A model generated the notes under the pieces. The model was not told where the DNA came from. It ran no database searches and worked only from the letters and a program-made list of their open reading frames with translations. Shown piece after piece: positions 21,436-43,270 of a DNA stretch of 64,000 bases. Source of the DNA: Calditrichota bacterium (lineage in GTDB: Bacteria > Calditrichota > Calditrichia > Calditrichales > Calditrichaceae); assembly GCA_024278755.1 (NCBI GenBank), contig JAJRSO010000013.1, positions 1 to 64,000 on the forward strand. The letters run 5' to 3'. The position numbers and the translations under genes were made by a program. Numbering within the stretch: position 1 is the first letter of the stretch; each line of letters starts with the position of its first letter.

Positions 21436-22620
21436 ATGTCCGATACTATTTATCCGGAAAAAAACGGGCAGGTACTATTGAAAAAAAACAAACTCTTCAA
21501 ATACATTCTGGAAAGACCCGCCATCCAGGCGGTACTGCTAATCCTGGTAATCACTATCTTTGCCGCAGGACTTACCGTCTATTTCGAGGCATCCGGCAAT
21601 CCGGAATTTAAAGGTTTCGGCGATGCGGTTTGGTGGGTACTGGTCACAATTTCTACCGTTGGTTACGGAGACAAAGTCCCTGTAACGCCAGGCGGACGTT
21701 CTATGGCCGTTGTTTTGATGTTTTTCGGCGTAGCGCTGCTTTCGGTGGTTACGGCTACCATTTCGTCTATTTTTGTAACGCGTAAAATTAAAGAGGGTAA
21801 AGGTTTGCAAGAGATTAAACTGAAAAACCATATTTTGCTCTGCGGCTGGAATACCCAGGCAGAACAGATTCTTTCCGTGTTTGAACAGGCAGAATCTAAA
21901 ATCAGCAATGTGGTAATGATCAATCAGCTTTCCGAAGAAGAAGCCGCCGATGTGATGGCGCGTTTTACGAAATTAAAGATTCGGTTTGTCCGCGGCGATT
22001 TCACACGCGAGAACCTTTTAAACCGCGCCAATGCAAACAGCGCCTCTGCCGCTATTATTCTGCCCGACATCAGCGGAGGAAATATGCGTCCCGGCGATGA
22101 ACGCACGATTTTGGCCACCCTTTCATTAAAAACGCTCAACAATAAAATAAAAGTGTATGCCCATATTTTGGATCGCGATAACCTGTCTCATTTAAAGAAG
22201 GCCAAAGCCGATGAAGTGATTATCAGTGATAACCACAGCGGGTATTTACTGGCGAGCCATGTAACGGCGCCGGGCATACCACAGTTTTTCGAGCATCTTT
22301 TTTCCGACAAATCCGGCTATACGCTTAAACGGCACGAATTCGAACCGGAATGGTTTGGACGTTCCTATTCCGAATTTAAAGATTACTACGGCTCAGCATT
22401 CAACGGCATCCTGCTTGGCATCGGTAAAATGAGCGAATCCTTTCAACTCTCCGATTTAATGAGCGACGACTATTCTTATCTGGACGAATTTATCATGCGT
22501 AAATTTCAGGAAGCCGGCAGGGGAACCGAAAACGAAAACCGGGTAAAAATCGTTATCAATCCCAAATTGGAAACCGAATTGCAAAAAAATGATTTTTATA
22601 TCGCTCTGGAAAGTGAGTAA
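21436..22620 (+). CDS. Potassium channel with cytoplasmic RCK (TrkA-N) domain
   Basis: 394 residues: transmembrane helix (about 30-50), pore helix and K+ selectivity filter TVGYGD (74-79), second helix (about 88-112), then an RCK domain from about 128 (KNHILLCGWNTQAEQIL) to about 255 and a C-terminal part. This is the two-helix MthK-like form; the dinucleotide-binding glycine pattern reads CGWNTQA rather than GxGxxG. RCK domains gate the pore on ligand binding. It has no cyclic-nucleotide domain of its own, but such a domain is encoded 2 bases downstream. Confidence 0.92.
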   Translation: MSDTIYPEKNGQVLLKKNKLFKYILERPAIQAVLLILVITIFAAGLTVYFEASGNPEFKGFGDAVWWVLVTISTVGYGDKVPVTPGGRSMAVVLMFFGVALLSVVTATISSIFVTRKIKEGKGLQEIKLKNHILLCGWNTQAEQILSVFEQAESKISNVVMINQLSEEEAADVMARFTKLKIRFVRGDFTRENLLNRANANSASAAIILPDISGGNMRPGDERTILATLSLKTLNNKIKVYAHILDRDNLSHLKKAKADEVIISDNHSGYLLASHVTAPGIPQFFEHLFSDKSGYTLKRHEFEPEWFGRSYSEFKDYYGSAFNGILLGIGKMSESFQLSDLMSDDYSYLDEFIMRKFQEAGRGTENENRVKIVINPKLETELQKNDFYIALESE

Positions 22621-22622
22621 AA

Positions 22623-23156
22623 ATGAGTGCATCAAAATCTTCCATACTTAAAACAAAACACGAATATCTTAAAAAAGTCCCGCTGTTTTCCGGATTGAGT
22701 GACACACAGTTAAAACGAATTACAGCCGTAATGACCGTTTCTAACTTCGAAGCAGGCAGCTATGTGATGCGTGAGGGAGACGACAGCACCGAGATTTATA
22801 TCCTGCTAAAAGGCGAAGTCGAAATTTCCAAATCACTGGTTCTGCCACAGTGGATTCAGTCGGCGCAAAAACAGGAAAAAGCCCTGATTCGCCTGTCGGA
22901 AAAACACCACCCATTTTTCGGTGAAATGTCTATGTTCGGTAAAGACTCCACTCGTGACGCCTCTATCCTGGCCATAAAAAACTGTCAGATGGCCTGTCTG
23001 CAAAAAGAAACACTCATCGAAGAAACATCCCGCGATCCCGAAGCCGGCACAATCATTTACCGCAACATCGCCACCGAACTGGCCAAGCGGTTGCGTAAAG
23101 CCAATAAAGATATTTTAAAACTGACAACCGCTTTTAGTCTGGCATTGGAGGGCTGA
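22623..23156 (+). CDS. Cyclic-nucleotide-binding domain protein, no DNA-binding domain
   Basis: 177 residues made of one Crp-type beta-roll: VPLFSGLSDTQLKRI (helix A), GSYVMREGDDSTEIYILLKGEVEI, HHPFFGEMSMFGKDSTRDASILA (phosphate-binding cassette, FGEMSM) and NCQMACLQKETL. A long C-terminal helix follows and there is no helix-turn-helix, so it is not a transcription factor. The cassette lacks the usual R-x-A pair in exact form (TRDASI), so cAMP or cGMP binding is likely but not certain. Two bases separate it from each neighbour, so it probably works with the K+ channel upstream. Confidence 0.88.
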   Translation: MSASKSSILKTKHEYLKKVPLFSGLSDTQLKRITAVMTVSNFEAGSYVMREGDDSTEIYILLKGEVEISKSLVLPQWIQSAQKQEKALIRLSEKHHPFFGEMSMFGKDSTRDASILAIKNCQMACLQKETLIEETSRDPEAGTIIYRNIATELAKRLRKANKDILKLTTAFSLALEG

Positions 23157-23158
23157 CC

Positions 23159-24976
23159 GTGTTTCTCGCCGGCAGTGAACAGTTTCAATCGTACAGAGAT
23201 TACTATTCGCAAGTAATGCATCGTTATTTTCGGCGAAACCCGCCTATTCCCACCAACTACTATTTAAGCGGAGAGGCTGCTGAATCGGAAGAGTTAAAAA
23301 TACAAATTGCACAGCGCTGCCATTTCCCGTCGATAATCAATATTCTTGCCAATGATGAAAACGACCTGGTTCGTCGGACCGCACGAAATACACGCTTTTG
23401 GAAGCTGGCCGGGCGCTATCAGGATATTCTCGGTTTTGGCAAACGCGAGCGGCGCGCATTTGCCCGCATCGAAGGGCATCCCAACATTCTTGTTCTGCTT
23501 ATGTTCGAAGACGATCCCGATGTAATCAATGAAGTGCTGCACAATCCTTCGGTTTCTTTGCAAATTTTGGTTCTCTTCCAGCAACTGCTTAAAGAGCGCG
23601 GAACGGGCCGTAAAGACGAACAACTGCAAATGATTGCCAGGGGAATCATTTCCGAACGACGGGCACAAATTATAAAAATCTCCGAAATCAATAAAGCGGC
23701 AGAACAAATTGGCTCGCCACAAAACATTATTTCCATTTTACAATATTTTGCCGAAAAAGATGTTACCGTACACCGTGCTGTTGAGAACATCCTAAACGCG
23801 CAATCGGCCGGGATTGTGCGTTTATTCGTAAATAAAGCGCTCGAAAACGATTCCTTTAAACATATTCTGGACCATTTCTCTGTTCTTTCCAGTCTTATCA
23901 GTTTAATCGAACACCGGGAAGATTTAAAATATATCCCCATCAGCGCTCTGGGAATTGATAGTCCGGTTTCGGTTAACGGACCGCTGCAGTCCGTTTCTCA
24001 CTTTTTTTTAAATCTGCTCACTAAAAAAAGACTAAGTGTCATCCGACACAGCGCCGCCAATATTGCCGATTTTAAAAATATTATTTTATTGGCCCGATGC
24101 CATATAAACAGCAACGAAACTCTGCGCCGTCTGGCCACGGAAATAATGCCGGTGGAAGATATTTTACTGCTAATGAATGATATTTCCACCCCGCGCCGCA
24201 TATTTAAAGAGGTGTTAAGCATTCTCGAAAACCATTCGGATGAGTCTGTGGCCGAACGGGTGCACGACACCTATCTTTTAGACAGCAGCCGTATGCGAGA
24301 AAGTTTAAAAGAGCTCGAACTTTCGGTACAGGCTTATTTTGATATCATTTTCCAGTCGTTGGGCTATAACAAAATTAACGAATACCTGAATGTTGTCCGC
24401 TCCATCGAAACAACAAAAAAACAGCTAAGCAAATTCAATCAACTGATACTGGACGAATTGGGCGGCAACTATCAGGCGTTAACAGCCATGTTAGAGCAGA
24501 TTAAAAAAACTATGCGCAAAGAAGCCAATATTATTTATTTTGATATTAGTCCCGGTGTTTCCCGCGAGCTGGAATCCATTTTTTTGATAATCGAAGAGAT
24601 CTTTAAATTAAAAGACATGGGGCTGGCCTCGTTACGACCGGGCACCCCTCAGGACATAGAGTCGGAAATCCGGGCCCGGGCGCGCATTATCTGGCAAAGC
24701 GCCATTAGTATTTATTTGGGACGCATAAAAGATTTATCCGAAATGATTCGCAAAAAAATTCAGCGCTCGGCAGCTCCCTATACGGTAAAAAAGGAACTGG
24801 AAGCCGAAATGCGCACGGCTTCGGAAGAATTGGAAAAATCGTATAAATCCAAAATCCAGTGCGCTCTTACCAACACATGCATGGTATGCGGAAAACGCGG
24901 TTGCGCCGCGGAACGTTTTTTAAACGAGACCCATTTCTTTATCAAAGAATATCTCGATAATTTTATTGACGACTAA
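23159..24976 (+). CDS. Helical-repeat (HEAT-like) protein with C-terminal Cys cluster, function unknown
   Basis: 605 residues, almost all helical, with repeated leucine-rich helix pairs resembling HEAT/leucine-rich-variant repeats; residues 55-145 carry the best repeats (LANDENDLVRRTARNTRFW, then MFEDDPDVINEVLHNPSVS). The C-terminus has a Cys cluster (CALTNTCMVCGKRGCAAE) that could bind zinc or iron-sulphur. It starts with GTG at 23159; GGAGGG six bases upstream overlaps the end of the cNMP-binding gene, so translation is coupled. No family match comes to mind; it could be a scaffold or effector for the channel/cNMP pair. Confidence 0.85.
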   Translation: MFLAGSEQFQSYRDYYSQVMHRYFRRNPPIPTNYYLSGEAAESEELKIQIAQRCHFPSIINILANDENDLVRRTARNTRFWKLAGRYQDILGFGKRERRAFARIEGHPNILVLLMFEDDPDVINEVLHNPSVSLQILVLFQQLLKERGTGRKDEQLQMIARGIISERRAQIIKISEINKAAEQIGSPQNIISILQYFAEKDVTVHRAVENILNAQSAGIVRLFVNKALENDSFKHILDHFSVLSSLISLIEHREDLKYIPISALGIDSPVSVNGPLQSVSHFFLNLLTKKRLSVIRHSAANIADFKNIILLARCHINSNETLRRLATEIMPVEDILLLMNDISTPRRIFKEVLSILENHSDESVAERVHDTYLLDSSRMRESLKELELSVQAYFDIIFQSLGYNKINEYLNVVRSIETTKKQLSKFNQLILDELGGNYQALTAMLEQIKKTMRKEANIIYFDISPGVSRELESIFLIIEEIFKLKDMGLASLRPGTPQDIESEIRARARIIWQSAISIYLGRIKDLSEMIRKKIQRSAAPYTVKKELEAEMRTASEELEKSYKSKIQCALTNTCMVCGKRGCAAERFLNETHFFIKEYLDNFIDD

Positions 24977-31481: not shown

Positions 31482-32642
31482 ATGAAAGCGACCCGTTTCG
31501 GCATATACCTGGCTCTCGTTTTTCTTATGCGGGTTCCGGGATTCACACAAGATATTTCTCTAACTTTCGAGATTTTCAATCAGGAGAAGCTACAATTACT
31601 GTATCTTTCAGATATGGATTTATTACAGCAGGGTGCTTCGGGAACCTCCGAACCGATTTTTGAAATTATTCTCAGCGCTCCGGGTGACCCCGCCCAGCCA
31701 AATGTCACCAGATATACCGGTTGCCGCATCTTTTTGAATATTAAAAAAGATGAAGAATCTCTTGTTTCGTGGCAATCGAACGCCTTCGAAATTCCGGTTC
31801 AGTCCGAACCGTACCATTTATCAAACATACCCTTGATCGCAAATACTTACCGCTTTGATGAAACCGACCCCGCTACGCAGGTCGTTTTAAATAAAACAGC
31901 TCTTAGCACTGATATCGAATCGCTGCAGGAAGACATTTTCAGCAGCGGGAAGCTGCCGGTCGGTAACTACACGCTGGAAGTTCTGCTTAATTATAATTTC
32001 AATGCTCTGCCCTTACAAACCGAACAAACCTTTACCTTTATCGAAGCGGTAAATCCCAGTTTTATTCAACTAATTTCACCGGGCAACCAGGTTGCCGACG
32101 GAGAACCTCAGGCAATTTATAATGAATTCCCTGTTTTTCAGTGGACGGGCAATGGCGATGCGTATCAGGTGGTGGTATTTGAAAAGCGCAATCGTTTTCA
32201 AACTATCGACGACATTGTTCGCTCCCGTGAAAACTGGAAATCCGAACTCAGTTCGGTGGAATCGGTCATCTACCCGCAGGGCGGAAATGTCATCCCTCTT
32301 GAAACCGGAAAAACCTATTTTTGGATGGTGCGCATGTTCGTGAACACCTCTTCGGGTAAAGAAACGGTTAACAGCGAAGTTTGGCAGTTTTATCTGGCTA
32401 ATCCGTCAAATCAGCTCAGTGGCCAGGGACTCATATCCAAGAACGACATGCTTGCCTTTCTGCGGGATCTGCTGGGAGATAAAGCCGATGAAATCGCCGC
32501 TTCACTCGATGATTTTCAGGTTTCCACCGTCAAAGTTAACGGCAGCGAAATTACCATTCAGGAGCTTTATAATTTGATAAATACCTATCGCAGCCAAAAA
32601 GTGGAAGTGCTGGATCTCATCCTTCCCGAAACGATTAATTAG
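31482..32642 (+). CDS. Exported protein with fibronectin-like C-terminal part, function unknown
   Basis: 386 residues with a signal peptide (1-22, ending PGFTQ). The middle is beta-rich; the stretch around 200-300 (FPVFQWTGNGDAYQVVVFEKR, then GKTYFWMVRMFV) looks like a fibronectin type III or Ig-like module. The C-terminus is helical with two near-repeats, KADEIAASLDDFQ and a following ISIQEL-like stretch. GGAGGG stands before the ATG. It is the first gene of a run with a FecR-domain protein, a barrel and a CHASE2 cyclase, so it may take part in the same envelope system. Confidence 0.8.
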   Translation: MKATRFGIYLALVFLMRVPGFTQDISLTFEIFNQEKLQLLYLSDMDLLQQGASGTSEPIFEIILSAPGDPAQPNVTRYTGCRIFLNIKKDEESLVSWQSNAFEIPVQSEPYHLSNIPLIANTYRFDETDPATQVVLNKTALSTDIESLQEDIFSSGKLPVGNYTLEVLLNYNFNALPLQTEQTFTFIEAVNPSFIQLISPGNQVADGEPQAIYNEFPVFQWTGNGDAYQVVVFEKRNRFQTIDDIVRSRENWKSELSSVESVIYPQGGNVIPLETGKTYFWMVRMFVNTSSGKETVNSEVWQFYLANPSNQLSGQGLISKNDMLAFLRDLLGDKADEIAASLDDFQVSTVKVNGSEITIQELYNLINTYRSQKVEVLDLILPETIN

Positions 32643-32652
32643 GAGAACAGCA

Positions 32653-33330
32653 ATGAAAACACGAAATATTAGTATCCTATTTTTAGTCTCTTTACTGTTC
32701 CTGTCGTTTGCAAATGCCGAACCTATCGCGGTTGTTATTAAAACCCGCGGGAAAGTTACCGTTACTTCCAATAACGGAAAAAAATTAAAAGCGCGGGTTG
32801 GAACTCGCCTTTACCCGGGGACAAAAATCACCACCAAAAAGAAGAGCTTTGCCGCTATTCGTTTTATTGACGACGGCAGCCTGGTACGTATCCGCTCTAA
32901 CTCAACCTGTACCGTGGAGGGTAAGCGCGAAAAAAGCGGTTTCTTTAAAAACCTGTTTTTAGAGGCGGGAACTCTGTTTAGTAAAATCGTAAAACAAAAA
33001 AGTATTTTCCGTATCACCACGCCCACCTCCGTGGCCTCGGTTAAGGGTACCGCCTTTTGGGTAAAACAAGAGTTTAAAGGCGGCACCTACTATTTTGGCG
33101 AAGAGGGCGTTGTGGAAATAAGCAATAAAAAGGGTTGGGCCTTGTTGCGTAAAGGCGAAACAGGGTATGTCAGCTCCCCGTCCAGCCGCCCCATTGTGCG
33201 CAAAACCAAAAAAGGCGAAAAACCGGAACGGAAAGACAGCAAAACAACTATTGATGAATTAGAAATTGATTTTAAAAATCAAAAGGGCGATGTAAAATCG
33301 CTTAAGTTTAAAGTAAAAAAAGAAAAATAG
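32653..33330 (+). CDS. Exported FecR-domain protein
   Basis: 225 residues with a signal peptide ending at about FANA (residue 22). A FecR beta-helix-like domain follows: IKTRGKVTVTSNNGKKLKARVGTRLYPGTKITTKKKSFAAIRFIDDGSLVRIRSNS, then the family motif RITTPTSVASVKGTAFWV. The C-terminus is highly basic. FecR domains are known as periplasmic signalling modules. It lies 10 bases after the preceding gene and two genes upstream of a CHASE2 adenylate cyclase. Confidence 0.9.
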   Translation: MKTRNISILFLVSLLFLSFANAEPIAVVIKTRGKVTVTSNNGKKLKARVGTRLYPGTKITTKKKSFAAIRFIDDGSLVRIRSNSTCTVEGKREKSGFFKNLFLEAGTLFSKIVKQKSIFRITTPTSVASVKGTAFWVKQEFKGGTYYFGEEGVVEISNKKGWALLRKGETGYVSSPSSRPIVRKTKKGEKPERKDSKTTIDELEIDFKNQKGDVKSLKFKVKKEK

Positions 33331-33390
33331 AATCGTATTTTACGCTATAAAAAACTTCTTTTTTTACCCTGTCGTTATGGAGGAATATTT

Positions 33391-35778
33391 ATGCAGGGCT
33401 CTAAAGCGTATACAATTATCATCCTTTTAGGCTTGGTTTTTATTTCACGAGCTCAAGCTGTTCAATTTTTTCATGATGAACCGGCGCCGGTTGTTGTTGG
33501 CGAGACACTGCACCTGGAACTGACCTATACCGAGAACAAACAGCCGGTAAACAATGTTTTCTTTTTCTACCGTATGCAGGGCGAACATAACTACCGTTCT
33601 TTGCGCATGCGTCAGGAAGGCCTCATTCTAACGGTGGATATGAATACATCCAAGTTTTTTCCCGGTGATTTGGAATATTATTTTGCTTTTCAGGATGCAT
33701 ACGGCGATGTGAAATACCTGCCGGCCGGAAATCCCGAAGACAACCCCTTTAGAGTCAAAATACTACCGGCAAAGAGCGAAAAACCCAGCGCCGGCGGAAA
33801 ACTGTTCGTACCGCTTCTGCTTAGCCCGGAACCGGGTGAAGTAGTGCCGCCGGATGAACTTTTACTAGCCTTCTCCATTCCCTTTGAACTGGACCCGCAA
33901 AAATTAAGCTATAAATTATTCATCGGCGGAGTGGATGTTTCCCGTCTGCTGAACCGAGACGGTAACCTGCTTACGTTTTCTCCTAAAAGTATCCGTAGCG
34001 GGTTGCACAATGCCGAATTAAAAATTTTAGACGAAAACGGAAAACTCATCGGCCGCAATCAGCTTTCCTTCCGTATCAGCGGAAAGCCGTCCAGACAAAA
34101 AGCATTTGAATCGGCCACCCGTATCTTTTTGGACAATCGTTATCAAAGCATCCAGAATACCGCCGAAAACTATTTTCGCGGCGGTATGTATTTTTCCGGT
34201 AGTTATAAAAAACTGGAATTTAAGGCCCATGCGCTTATCAGCTCCGAAGAGGCCTACAACCTACAGCCCATCAACCAATTCGGTATTCAGGCCAGTTATG
34301 TTTTTAACGAACGCAACAGCATCTATTTAAAAGGAGGCGATTTTACCACGAATTACGATCCTCTCTCTTTTTGGGAAAAACGTATCCGCGGTATTGGCGC
34401 CGGGTTTTATACCAGTTATTTTGATTTCGACTATAGTTATGGTCAGAACTTTCGCGCGGTAGAAGGAAAAATCGATACCGCCGGTTTTATCCGTAACGGC
34501 ACCTTCGAACAGACCTTTACCAGTTTTCGTCCTCAGTTTAACTTTGGCCGTCATTTCAGCTGGGCTTTCGATTTGGTAAACGCTAAAGATGATCCAAAAT
34601 CTATCGTAGACAGTCTGGCCGGAAACCCCAAAGAAGCATTGGTTGCAGGCAGCTCTATGAATCTTGATCTTGATAAAAAGCGCATCTTGTTTAAAGGCAG
34701 TTTTCAGGCCAGTATAAAAAACGAAGATGCCGGCGGTGAAGCCGTGGAGTTCGACAGTATCGCCGCTTCTTATGAACTTTCGGATACAGAAGCCGATCAG
34801 ATAAAACCATTTGTAAATTTTTTAGAAAAAACCGGCTTTCTGACATTAACTCAGGGTCTGACCCCGATTCCCAGTTTTGCTATGCAGTTCGAGACACAAC
34901 TGCGCTATTTCGGACATGCATTTAAAGCCGCTTATAAACGTATCGATGCAGAATTTACGTCTCCCGGAAATCCGTATCTGCGCAGAGACATTGCCGGATA
35001 TTTTATAAGCGACAATGTGCGGATGCTGCAAAACCAGGTGCTGCTTAACCTCTATTTTAATTCCTATGCCGATAACCTTTCCCAGGGGGACGCTAAAACA
35101 CAAAATCAGGCCATGGGGGCTTCTATCTCCTATTTTCCGTTTTCAAACCTACCCAGTGTTACGCTTTCATACGGCAACCAGTCTCGCGAAAATGAGCTGG
35201 CCCGGCAGCAAACAGACCCCGATTCAACTTTTCTTACCGTGGTTGACAACCGCCACCAGCGTTTTGGTATTTCATCTTCATACCGGTTTAATGCCGGAAA
35301 AATACAAAATACCCTTATGCTTAATGCATCCAAATTTCAATATGCCGATGCTGTTTCCAGCAAACGAAATACCGATTTAATTCTCTTTTCCATCGGTATG
35401 CGCAGCCGGTTTTCGTTTCCGATGACCATCCGTTTTAATTATGCGCAGGATGTTTCAAATCTGTATGTTCTGAATACGGACAATCAGGCTTATGTGGGCA
35501 GCGAGGTTAAAACCCGTAAATTTCAGGCAGGTCTTGATTACAATATCCGGAATTTTGCGGGAAGTAGTGATTTGAAGCCATTCCTGAATATCAGCCTGCA
35601 AAAAATTGCCAATGATCAGGAAACAACCGACTATAGCCGTCAAAACTATAGCGCCGGGTTTTACCTGCGTGGAAACCGTTTCGGGAATTTCTCCTTTCGG
35701 TATGATTATATAAACTATGGCCGTCTAAACAACTGGAAAGATACCATAATCAGCACCCGTTACGATATTTCGTTTTAG
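33391..35778 (+). CDS. Predicted outer-membrane beta-barrel protein with N-terminal Ig-like domains
   Basis: 795 residues with signal peptide (1-23, ending SRAQA). Residues 25-120 are an Ig-like domain; 140-235 a second one (LLLSPEPGEVVPPDELLLAFSIP). The remaining 550 residues show many amphipathic beta strands, alternating polar and aromatic residues and a terminal strand ending YDISF, as in outer-membrane barrels. It is not a TonB-dependent receptor: no plug motif is visible. GGAGG upstream of the ATG. Its place between the FecR protein and the cyclase suggests a role in passing an outer-membrane state inward. Confidence 0.85.
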   Translation: MQGSKAYTIIILLGLVFISRAQAVQFFHDEPAPVVVGETLHLELTYTENKQPVNNVFFFYRMQGEHNYRSLRMRQEGLILTVDMNTSKFFPGDLEYYFAFQDAYGDVKYLPAGNPEDNPFRVKILPAKSEKPSAGGKLFVPLLLSPEPGEVVPPDELLLAFSIPFELDPQKLSYKLFIGGVDVSRLLNRDGNLLTFSPKSIRSGLHNAELKILDENGKLIGRNQLSFRISGKPSRQKAFESATRIFLDNRYQSIQNTAENYFRGGMYFSGSYKKLEFKAHALISSEEAYNLQPINQFGIQASYVFNERNSIYLKGGDFTTNYDPLSFWEKRIRGIGAGFYTSYFDFDYSYGQNFRAVEGKIDTAGFIRNGTFEQTFTSFRPQFNFGRHFSWAFDLVNAKDDPKSIVDSLAGNPKEALVAGSSMNLDLDKKRILFKGSFQASIKNEDAGGEAVEFDSIAASYELSDTEADQIKPFVNFLEKTGFLTLTQGLTPIPSFAMQFETQLRYFGHAFKAAYKRIDAEFTSPGNPYLRRDIAGYFISDNVRMLQNQVLLNLYFNSYADNLSQGDAKTQNQAMGASISYFPFSNLPSVTLSYGNQSRENELARQQTDPDSTFLTVVDNRHQRFGISSSYRFNAGKIQNTLMLNASKFQYADAVSSKRNTDLILFSIGMRSRFSFPMTIRFNYAQDVSNLYVLNTDNQAYVGSEVKTRKFQAGLDYNIRNFAGSSDLKPFLNISLQKIANDQETTDYSRQNYSAGFYLRGNRFGNFSFRYDYINYGRLNNWKDTIISTRYDISF

Positions 35779-35790
35779 AAAGGCGGCTCA

Positions 35791-37947
35791 ATGAAATTAG
35801 TAAAATCCGCATCCCGGCCTGGTATTCTGATTTCAATCGGATTTTTTTACGTTATTGCAGCTTTTGTTTTGAGTTTTACTGGGCTCTTTGTAAATCTGGA
35901 GCTTAAAACGCTTGATATGCGTTTTAACCTGCGCGGTGAATTGCCCCTTGAAAACACCTCCGTTGTCATTGTTGCCATCGATGATCAATCGGATGAATCC
36001 ACACCGGCCCGCTGGCCCTGGCCCCGCTCCTATTACGCCCATATTATCAAAAATCTCGAAGAAGCCGGTGTTGCCGTTATCGGGCTTGACGTAATGCTGG
36101 ACCAAAGCGACGATTCCAATCCGGGATCGGATGCCCAACTGGCCAAAGTTTTAGATAAATACGATAATATTGTATTAACCGGTAAACTACTCCGCTCTTC
36201 TGCAAGCTATTCATACAGCACACTTATTCCGCCTTATGAAAAATTTGTGTCGGGTCCTACCTCCTGGGGCCTGGCCGCTCTGGAAGCGGATGCGGATGGG
36301 TTTTTCAGACGCTATTCGGTTGGTCAGATGTACGGTGATTCTCTGTTGCCGTCATTTGCAGCGGAAATACTACGAAAATTTACCCCCGCTTCCGGGCACA
36401 CCTCCCTAACCATTGACAAAGATTATTTTATACTGAATCCATACCATATCTTAAAGTTTGACCCAGCCAGTATGTTGATCAATTTTTCGGGCCCGGCCTT
36501 TAGCTTTCCCTACTATTCATTTGACACTATTTTAGATGACAAAGATTTTAGTCTGCGAGAAGATTTTGATATGGACGCCTTCGATGACCCTGGCAACCCG
36601 GCACTTGGCTTGCCGCCAGGGCTTAAGTATTCCGGAGTTTTAAAAGGCAAGATTGTGTTAATCGGCTCCAGTATGCACGAATTGCACGACAACTTTCCAA
36701 CACCGTTTATGGAGCATCGCAATAGTTCCGGCCAGGAGGTAATGGCCGAAATGCCCGGAGTTGAAATTCATGCTAACGCGCTACAAACTATTTTAAGCGG
36801 AAATTACTTAACGTCTTTATCGCGGTTTACCGTTTTGATAGTATTAATCCTGCTTACCGCGCTTATTTTTCTTAGCACCCGCTTGGCAAGTACATTGCTA
36901 AGCGCTGGTTTTGGTCTGCTTTTACTAATCACCTATACGATTATTGCAGCCTGGGCTTTTTCCGGTAACAATCTCATTCTTCCGGTAATGGCGCCTATTC
37001 TTTCTCTTTTATTTGCCTATACCGGGTTTACCGTTTATAGTTACTTTTTATCCCTTCAGGAAAAAAAGATGCTGCGCGGCGCCTTCGCCTACTATGTGCC
37101 GGAATCGGTTATTCAGGATATTGTGAATAACCCCGAAAAACTTAAACTCGGCGGTGAAGAGCGTGTGGTTACGGTTATGTTTACGGATGTGGCCGGTTTT
37201 ACCACCATTTCGGAAGCGCTTAAGCCGCGGGAACTGGTGGGACTGCTGAATGAATACCTTACCGAAATGACCGATATTGTTATAAAAAATAACGGCGTTA
37301 TCGATAAGTACGAAGGCGACGCCATCATGGCCGAATTTGGCGTTCCTGTTCATTTTGATACTCATGCCCGTGCCGCCTGCAGCGCTGCTTTGGAAATGCA
37401 AAAAAAATTACGCCTGATGCGTAAAAGCTGGGCCAAACGGGGTATGCCCGAATTAAGTGCGCGCGTGGGAATCAACACCGGTGAGGTAATCGTTGGGAAT
37501 ATGGGTTCGCGTGATGTTTTTGATTATACCGTAATGGGTGATCATGTAAATTTAGGCGCCCGCCTCGAAGGCGCCAACAAATTTTACGGAACCCATATTA
37601 TGATTTCCGAATTTACCTACGCACAGGTTAAGGACTACTTTTTAACTCGTCCGCTTGATTTTATTCGTGTTAAGGGTAAAAATAAACCGGTGGAAGTATT
37701 TGAACTGGTAGCCGACAACGAGACGAAATTTACCGATGACTTTTTTAAACTCATGGAATTGTTTGGACGGGGAATTGCCGCTTACCGGAATCGGAAATGG
37801 ATGGACGCCGCCGATATTTTTTCGTATTGTTTAAAACTGTTCCCGGATGATAAACCTTCGGAAATTTATTATAAGCGATGCTTTGAATATCAACAAAACC
37901 CACCCGGAGCCGACTGGGACGGCGTTACGACAATGACAGAAAAATAA
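35791..37947 (+). CDS. CHASE2-domain adenylate cyclase (class III)
   Basis: 718 residues: N-terminal transmembrane helix (about 12-34), a periplasmic CHASE2 sensor (about 40-340), three membrane helices (about 345-365, 368-390 and 395-420), then a class III cyclase domain (about 450-640). Metal Asp residues are D466 (FTDVAGF) and D510 (KYEGDAIMAEFG). Adenine-specifying Lys506 and Asp584, and the transition-state pair Asn587 and Arg591 (GDHVNLGARLE), are all present, so cAMP production is predicted. CHASE2 is a known extracytoplasmic sensor of unknown ligands. A 13-base gap links it to the barrel gene. Confidence 0.95.
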   Translation: MKLVKSASRPGILISIGFFYVIAAFVLSFTGLFVNLELKTLDMRFNLRGELPLENTSVVIVAIDDQSDESTPARWPWPRSYYAHIIKNLEEAGVAVIGLDVMLDQSDDSNPGSDAQLAKVLDKYDNIVLTGKLLRSSASYSYSTLIPPYEKFVSGPTSWGLAALEADADGFFRRYSVGQMYGDSLLPSFAAEILRKFTPASGHTSLTIDKDYFILNPYHILKFDPASMLINFSGPAFSFPYYSFDTILDDKDFSLREDFDMDAFDDPGNPALGLPPGLKYSGVLKGKIVLIGSSMHELHDNFPTPFMEHRNSSGQEVMAEMPGVEIHANALQTILSGNYLTSLSRFTVLIVLILLTALIFLSTRLASTLLSAGFGLLLLITYTIIAAWAFSGNNLILPVMAPILSLLFAYTGFTVYSYFLSLQEKKMLRGAFAYYVPESVIQDIVNNPEKLKLGGEERVVTVMFTDVAGFTTISEALKPRELVGLLNEYLTEMTDIVIKNNGVIDKYEGDAIMAEFGVPVHFDTHARAACSAALEMQKKLRLMRKSWAKRGMPELSARVGINTGEVIVGNMGSRDVFDYTVMGDHVNLGARLEGANKFYGTHIMISEFTYAQVKDYFLTRPLDFIRVKGKNKPVEVFELVADNETKFTDDFFKLMELFGRGIAAYRNRKWMDAADIFSYCLKLFPDDKPSEIYYKRCFEYQQNPPGADWDGVTTMTEK

Positions 37948-37981: not shown

Positions 37982-38017
37982 AAAAAAAAGGCCGTCTGAA
38001 ACCAGGCGGCCTTTTTT
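37982..38017. terminator. Bidirectional Rho-independent terminator
   Basis: A nine-pair stem with one G-U pair (37990-37998 and 38003-38011, loop AAAC) is flanked by eight A before and six T after. It lies between the convergent cyclase gene (plus, ends 37947) and groES (minus, ends 38035) and can terminate both. Confidence 0.85.
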
Positions 38018-42131: not shown

Positions 42132-42728
42132 ATGGAAAATCAAGTCCGGTATGAAAATGAAACAAGCGATGAAGTTTTAATCGGGCGTTTTCAACAGGGT
42201 GATAATTATGCTTTTGATTTGCTTGTTAAACGCTACAAAGATCCGCTGATAAACTTTATCTACCGGTTTCTCGGAAGCCAGACAGACGCCGAAGACGTAT
42301 TACAGGAAACATTTCTTCGGTTATATAAAAACAAGCATTACTATAAAGAAATTGCAAAATTTTCCACATGGATTTACACAATCGCCGGGAATCTTGCAAA
42401 AACGGAACTACGAAAACGAAGACGCAGGACATTCTTTTCCATTAATCAGTTTGGCGGAGAAGAAAAGGATTACGAAATTCCGGATGATTCCAATAATCCG
42501 GAACAGGAAACTAACACGCAGATAACCGATGATATTATCCAGGCAGCCATCGAACGGTTGTCTCCCAAATTCAAAGAAGTTATCATTCTGCGCGATATCC
42601 AGGGATTCTCTTATGAGGAAATTGCAGATATGATACAGGTGCCGCTTGGTACCGTTAAATCGCGTGTGAATCGTGCGCGACTAAAATTACAAGATGATTT
42701 GCAGCATTTGATGAAAGACGTTGATTAA
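42132..42728 (+). CDS. ECF-type RNA polymerase sigma factor
   Basis: 198 residues with region 2 (DEVLIGRFQQGDNYAFDLLVKRYKDPLINFIYRFLGSQTDAEDVLQETFLRLYK) and region 4 (IERLSPKFKEVIILRDIQGFSYEEIADMIQVPLGTVKSRVNRARLKL), separated by a charged linker with RKRRRR. Lacks sigma regions 1 and 3, as ECF factors do. 23 bases separate it from the anti-sigma gene. Confidence 0.95.
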   Translation: MENQVRYENETSDEVLIGRFQQGDNYAFDLLVKRYKDPLINFIYRFLGSQTDAEDVLQETFLRLYKNKHYYKEIAKFSTWIYTIAGNLAKTELRKRRRRTFFSINQFGGEEKDYEIPDDSNNPEQETNTQITDDIIQAAIERLSPKFKEVIILRDIQGFSYEEIADMIQVPLGTVKSRVNRARLKLQDDLQHLMKDVD

Positions 42729-42751
42729 CCTGAAATTTAATAAATGAAAGT

Positions 42752-43270
42752 ATGCCTATGAACTCTTGTGACAATGTGAAAGCTCTTTTTTCTGACTACA
42801 TTGACGACTCACTCTCTGCAGAACAGCGTGCCCAAGTAGACGCCCATACGGCCGATTGTGCAGAGTGCCGGATGGTTTTAAAGCAGGTTGCTCATTTAAC
42901 ACAACGCATTCAAACCATGTCTGCCATCTCCGCTTCCGATGCTTTTGACCAGAGTCTTCGCAACCGGATTATGGAAAATTATGCTACCGAATCCAAATCC
43001 AGTTTAAAACGCAGCTTTACCTTTGGTTTTTCCGGCGCCGCTGTTTTAGCCGCTCTCACTTTTTTTATACTGAGCACATTCGAAGGCCCATCCGTCGAAA
43101 CGGTTCCTGCCGGAATTAGCGGCGCGGCGCCCAAAGCGCAGCCGGAACTTATTCGCCGTGAAGCTGCTCCGCAATCAGCACTTGCTGCCGAAACCTTAAA
43201 AAAAGATTCTCTAAAGAATACGCCCGCTCGTGTCGATCAAAAGATACAACTGGTCGGGCAAGATAAATAG
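42752..43270 (+). CDS. Anti-sigma factor with zinc-finger-type ZAS domain and one membrane helix
   Basis: 172 residues. The zinc-binding HxxxCxxC is His32, Cys36, Cys39 (DAHTADCAECRM) with an earlier Cys6 that may complete the site. One membrane helix lies at about 92-110. The periplasmic part is Ala/Pro/Lys-rich and unstructured. It pairs with the ECF sigma upstream; the presence of Cys in the site leaves open redox sensing. Two starts are possible (42752, 42758). Confidence 0.88.
   Translation: MPMNSCDNVKALFSDYIDDSLSAEQRAQVDAHTADCAECRMVLKQVAHLTQRIQTMSAISASDAFDQSLRNRIMENYATESKSSLKRSFTFGFSGAAVLAALTFFILSTFEGPSVETVPAGISGAAPKAQPELIRREAAPQSALAAETLKKDSLKNTPARVDQKIQLVGQDK

Follow-up and report, generated by a model that had tools for sequence, protein, structure and literature searches.

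Four consecutive genes in the genome of a Calditrichota bacterium (GenBank assembly GCA_024278755.1, contig JAJRSO010000013.1, positions 1 to 64,000; we refer to this whole 64,000-nucleotide stretch as the window) encode an exported protein with predicted immunoglobulin (Ig)-like domains, an exported FecR-domain protein, a predicted outer-membrane beta-barrel, and a CHASE2 adenylate cyclase. We propose that this cassette (genes 1 to 4; Table 1) probably constitutes a trans-envelope signaling relay running from barrel to FecR to CHASE2 to cyclic AMP (cAMP). We favor this reading because the linkage of the genes is conserved, the catalytic residues of the cyclase are intact, the NsrA-CyaK pair of Sinorhizobium meliloti provides a precedent, FecR genes are enriched near CHASE2 genes outside the phylum, and six cyclic nucleotide monophosphate (cNMP)-binding proteins are encoded in the same genome. 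Given NsrA-CyaK, the idea of such a relay is not wholly new; the Calditrichota variant is set apart by a FecR protein split off from the barrel, an unrelated barrel, and an added Ig-like protein.

A sequence-only reading of the window had described these four genes as consecutive and closely spaced, and the coordinates of the open reading frames (ORFs), Pfam searches, and AlphaFold2 models confirmed that description. The ORFs (386, 225, 795, and 718 codons in order) are co-directional on the plus strand, span 31482-37947, and are separated by gaps of 10, 60, and 12 bp. Genes 1 to 3 begin with signal-peptide-like N termini that carry no lipobox cysteine. A purine nucleoside phosphorylase (PNP)-like gene lies upstream of the operon, and a strong terminator hairpin sits between the operon and a convergent groES-like gene. 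A promoter scan of the operon returned sites not above the chance number and thus does not show a dedicated promoter; that the operon is more than a chance arrangement is argued by the retention of the four-gene order throughout the phylum despite changing flanks.

That retention was extensive. Among 39 other genomes of the class, 37 carry the gene 3 barrel, and the named barrel matches, obtained with a seven-row alignment, belonged to Calditrichota/Calditrichia. The cyclase gene directly follows the barrel gene in 35 of the 37 Calditrichota genomes with a readable downstream side (a count that includes G032 and G037, read from split contigs), 34 of 35 readable loci have FecR directly before the barrel, and gene 1 comes before FecR at every locus whose contig extends that far. 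By comparison, the flanking SppA, PNP, groES, and glutaredoxin genes are kept only in nearer relatives. Since the flanks vary while the cassette stays, selection appears to act on the unit itself. No chaperone, secretion, polysaccharide, or sigma gene was found within the conserved unit of the Calditrichota loci compared. The gene order sought in other genomes on the basis of the sequence-only reading is therefore kept across Calditrichota and in some genomes outside the phylum, with the barrel and first gene remaining linked to a cyclase whose catalytic residues are intact.

Two of the departures from this pattern concern the cyclase. In G007, neither a canonical barrel nor a cassette-type cyclase is present; at a contig end of this genome (L145 303-3523), a gene for a barrel that is a distant relative of gene 3 comes after one for a FecR protein with Glucodextran_B Ig-like domains. 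In G029, a cassette-type cyclase is retained elsewhere on the chromosome (C1:628333), and its expected place after the barrel (L067 10600-14050) is occupied by unrelated genes, including a TonB-dependent receptor-like one, and a run of Ns, which reflects either rearrangement or misassembly. The joint absence in G007 and the retention of a relocated cyclase in G029 both count in favor of the relay. In a cyclase tree, the cassette cyclases separate from the solo CHASE2 cyclases also present in most of these Calditrichota genomes. The genome under study has such a second CHASE2 adenylate cyclase gene (L003 8693-10900, G000:C10), with no FecR or barrel gene and with aminotransferase-like and response-regulator-like genes beside it. 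We considered this gene as a second copy of the operon and rejected that assignment: it is a solo gene of the separate clade common to most Calditrichota checked.

The two proteins of the cassette with named domains were readily classified. Gene 2 encodes a signal peptide and a FecR domain, its sole Pfam match, with no cytoplasmic anti-sigma part, and its orthologs share an invariant TPTSVASVKGT core region. Gene 4 matches CHASE2 (PF05226, 4.5e-56) and Guanylate_cyc (PF00211, 2.2e-24), with one N-terminal transmembrane (TM)-like segment (residues 8-39) before CHASE2 and a block of such segments (residues 339-415) after it. Class III cyclases rely on two metal-binding aspartates, a substrate-binding lysine, a threonine/serine or aspartate at the adenine site, and an Asn-x3-Arg pair. 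In gene 4, residues D466, D510, K506, T580, N587, and R591 are present, and they are kept in every ortholog long enough to read. By these residues, gene 4 falls among the class III (IIIb-like) adenylate cyclases and is predicted to produce cAMP.

Table 1. Positions in the window of the four cassette genes and the terminator that follows them
Feature	Position	Strand	Description
Gene 1	31482..32642	+	exported 386-aa protein; predicted beta-sandwich (Ig/FN3-like) domains and short helical tail; no named family
Gene 2	32653..33330	+	exported 225-aa FecR-domain protein; FecR domain ~32824-33072; PF04773, 2.3e-10
Gene 3	33391..35778	+	exported 795-aa protein; two periplasmic Ig-like domains ~33472-34080; predicted outer-membrane beta-barrel of ~26 strands ~34105-35766
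Gene 4	35791..37947	+	CHASE2 adenylate cyclase, 718 aa; CHASE2 ~35854-36867; cyclase domain ~37165-37689
Intrinsic terminator hairpin	37990..38017	.	RNA fold -21.8 kcal/mol, z -5.85, followed by U run

The products of genes 1 and 3 had been noted from the sequence as belonging to no clear family, which our searches bore out, although each forms a coherent conserved family of its own. Sequence searches of both against Pfam, NCBIfam, and PDB returned nothing beyond Ig-like domains. For gene 1, the only Pfam match was a sub-threshold one to Ig_Rha78A_N (0.0074); its AlphaFold2 model (pLDDT 72.5, pTM 0.45) consists of beta-sandwich domains with a helical tail, and Foldseek returned weak FN3/Ig matches. 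Gene 3 had no Pfam match even at E<=1, and 1 of 29 orthologs matched Pfam, weakly and to Porin_4 only. The AlphaFold2 model of gene 3, built with 11 sequences (mean pLDDT 71.6, pTM 0.52), places two N-terminal Ig-like domains before about 26 long strands (residues 239-792), and the C-terminal residue is phenylalanine. Its Foldseek matches were mostly outer-membrane barrels of several families, namely porins, ushers, LptD, SprA, and the Mtr complex barrel, the last among the top TM-scores (0.39/0.46). These features make a well-founded prediction that gene 3 is an outer-membrane barrel, to which we assign no family. In profile comparison, the first domain matched the Ig-like domain of peptidylarginine deiminase (PPAD). 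A tblastn search with the gene 3 barrel against 72,556 plasmid records gave zero matches.

The closest functional counterpart comes from S. meliloti, in which a cAMP response to an external protein depends on both NsrA, an outer-membrane barrel, and CyaK, a CHASE2 cyclase (PMC7529298, PMC13001267). The gene directly before cyaK on pSymB, which we took as NsrA from the published description, encodes a FecR domain at residues 85-179, tetratricopeptide repeats (TPRs), and a C-terminal half that is called a barrel in the literature and has no Pfam match; the nsrA stop codon overlaps the cyaK start. The FecR domain in NsrA was found in this analysis, and gene 2 is homologous to that region (hhalign probability 97.9, E 5.4e-13). 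We dropped the assignment of gene 3 as an NsrA-type barrel after hhalign comparison with the NsrA barrel half (probability 0.4). Both systems, then, encode an outer-membrane barrel (predicted here), a FecR domain, and a CHASE2 class III adenylate cyclase in adjacent positions. Whereas FecR, TPRs, and barrel form one polypeptide in NsrA, FecR and barrel are separate genes in Calditrichota, with Ig-like domains in the place of the TPRs and an extra exported protein (gene 1). Fusion of FecR and barrel in rhizobia versus separate neighbors in Calditrichota is a classic sign of joint function. Likened in this way from genes and predicted structures, the cassette may work as NsrA-CyaK does, yet it is not an NsrA. 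On plasmid pRPC2 of Rhizobium sp. BG4 (L075 1636-7917), a Pycsar system effector family annotation lies near a FecR-barrel/CHASE2 cyclase pair, on the opposite strand.

The association of FecR with CHASE2 extends beyond the phylum. We checked for FecR in 54 sampled high-completeness genomes from outside Calditrichota with CHASE2 among the stronger matches listed. A FecR gene lay within 5 kb of CHASE2 in 21 of them; gene numbers and genome sizes would predict 0.78 under random gene placement and independence of genomes. The pairing of FecR with CHASE2 is thus common, not unusual. The complete four-gene cassette is also present outside Calditrichota, in at least three genomes (G046, G082, and G089), and G117 carries a permuted form, cyclase-barrel-FecR, with a barrel related to gene 3. 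Other barrels were also seen: an AlgE-type barrel (PF13372) lies beside the FecR-CHASE2 pair in G118, and G098 and G057 have likely barrels there, judged solely by length, signal peptide, and C-terminal phenylalanine. The strand-count and signal-peptide heuristics used for barrel-like neighbors are crude and give hints only. The G057 locus, from another phylum (L142 1790-9704), encodes on one strand a barrel-like protein, an 824-aa FecR protein, a CHASE2 cyclase, and a cNMP-binding protein; the position of the last gene directly after the cyclase suggests a possible cAMP effector within the same cluster. In G056 (L144 1210-5913), genes for a FecR protein, a barrel-like 386-aa protein, a nitroreductase-like protein, and a CHASE2 cyclase lie in a row.

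Partial likenesses to other systems have been described. In Burkholderia and Pseudomonas, FecR proteins are encoded beside CHASE2 kinases (PMC5192318). Like the cassette, the BiofilmReg operon of Burkholderia and its P. aeruginosa relative place a periplasmic FecR-domain protein next to a CHASE2 sensor, but there the output is a histidine kinase with a response regulator, the FecR protein is a LysM-FecR protein, and no barrel is described (PMC5192318). In magnetotactic bacteria, the gene for MtxA, an exported protein with an Ig-like domain, stands directly before a CHASE2 adenylate cyclase gene, as in the cassette; the likeness to gene 1 is one of description, MtxA differs in having TPRs, and no FecR or barrel is described in that cluster (PMC4439547).

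How would the four proteins work together? In the relay that we propose, the gene 3 barrel with its periplasmic Ig-like domains would sense an extracellular ligand or the state of the outer membrane, and the periplasmic products of genes 1 and 2 (the Ig-like protein and FecR) would pass the state of the barrel on to CHASE2. The periplasmic CHASE2 domain of the inner-membrane gene 4 protein would in turn control its class III adenylate cyclase, and cNMP-binding proteins encoded elsewhere in the genome would read the resulting cAMP. A CyaD1 construct lacking CHASE2 produces cAMP constitutively, which points to CHASE2 being a brake, and contact between FecR and FecA is stated in the same work (PMC5498481). 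By analogy with S. meliloti NsrA-CyaK and with FecA-FecR, the signal may therefore release CHASE2 inhibition of the cyclase; the direction of signaling and the contacts are modeled on the same two precedents. The step from barrel to FecR follows the FecA-FecR analogy, and that from FecR to CHASE2 is suggested by gene linkage and NsrA-CyaK.

Several observations weigh against this relay. G027 retains genes 1 to 3 without any cassette-type cyclase, and G005 has the barrel without genes 1 and 2 beside it. The gene 3 barrel is not detectably related to that of NsrA, its model has middling confidence, and the chance expectation for FecR near CHASE2 depends on the assumptions given above. The proposal from the sequence alone, that an outer-membrane state is read by CHASE2 and turned into cAMP, accordingly stands in part: conserved linkage, catalytic residues, the NsrA-CyaK counterpart, and FecR-CHASE2 enrichment all speak for it, with the protein contacts, the cyclase activity that would make cAMP, and the sensing of a signal as its predicted part.

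We weighed three other explanations. The barrel, FecR, and Ig-like protein could together form machinery for the cell surface or for export, such as a translocon, a porin, or an attachment complex; the cyclase would then monitor or regulate its assembly rather than respond to an external ligand. The ushers, LptD, and SprA among the structural matches of gene 3, besides porins and the Mtr complex barrel, would suit such a machine, as would an exported Ig-like protein of unknown destination and the occasional company of FecR proteins with non-cyclase CHASE2 outputs (PMC5192318). However, the conserved unit contains no chaperone, secretion, or polysaccharide gene and its constant partner is the cyclase, and we regard this explanation as rather unlikely. 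Mere co-expression of envelope genes of similar need, with the barrel and FecR sending no signal to the cyclase, seems less probable still. The G027 locus would fit it, and so would the status of the protein contacts as predictions; it accounts poorly for a linkage that persists over phylum-level distances, also in permuted order, for FecR-CHASE2 adjacency far above chance, and for a rhizobial FecR-barrel fusion that lies next to a CHASE2 cyclase and whose barrel the cAMP response requires.

A divergent Fec-type (FecA-FecR-FecI) surface signaling system, with FecR regulating a sigma factor, is very improbable. Like that system, the cassette pairs an outer-membrane barrel with a periplasmic protein carrying the FecR Pfam domain, and some 4 kb downstream there is a sigma-70-family-like gene (42132-42728). 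Unlike it, the cassette has a cyclase as its output and constant partner; gene 3 matches no TonB plug, TonB-dependent barrel, or STN signaling domain (Pfam, E<=1); and gene 2, with its signal peptide, matches FecR only and is unfused to any cytoplasmic anti-sigma part. The sigma gene itself stands beyond the terminator and two opposite-strand genes, and its own candidate anti-sigma gene comes after it. Since the defining features (a TonB-dependent receptor with plug and signaling domain, an anti-sigma FecR, and an adjacent FecI-type sigma factor) are absent, we rejected Fec-type signaling.

Elsewhere in the window, a two-TM ion channel with an RCK/TrkA_N domain is encoded at 21436-22620; after a gap of 2 bp comes the gene for a separate cNMP-binding protein (22623-23156), and the next gene (23159-24976) specifies a 605-aa protein that belongs to no Pfam family. 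The region 21436-24976, about 7 kb upstream of the cassette, is possibly a cAMP-gated channel operon. Downstream past the terminator, 42132-43270 holds the sigma-70-family-like gene and that of a small protein with a zinc-finger-like N terminus, the candidate anti-sigma factor.

The wider pattern of FecR, barrel, and CHASE2 is the most interesting lead from this analysis. Few cases are known in which information crosses two membranes to reach a cytoplasmic second messenger, and what CHASE2 domains recognize has been stated as unknown (PMC5192318). We suggest, tentatively and with less confidence than we attach to the relay itself, that FecR and CHASE2 form the core of a general, undescribed class of diderm trans-envelope signaling systems in which unrelated barrels plug into a common periplasmic relay with cyclase or kinase output, and of which the Calditrichota cassette would be a stable four-part form. 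Should CHASE2 in general read FecR proteins that report on outer-membrane barrels, an orphan sensor domain would be explained, and many unannotated genes for barrels and FecR proteins would gain a likely role.

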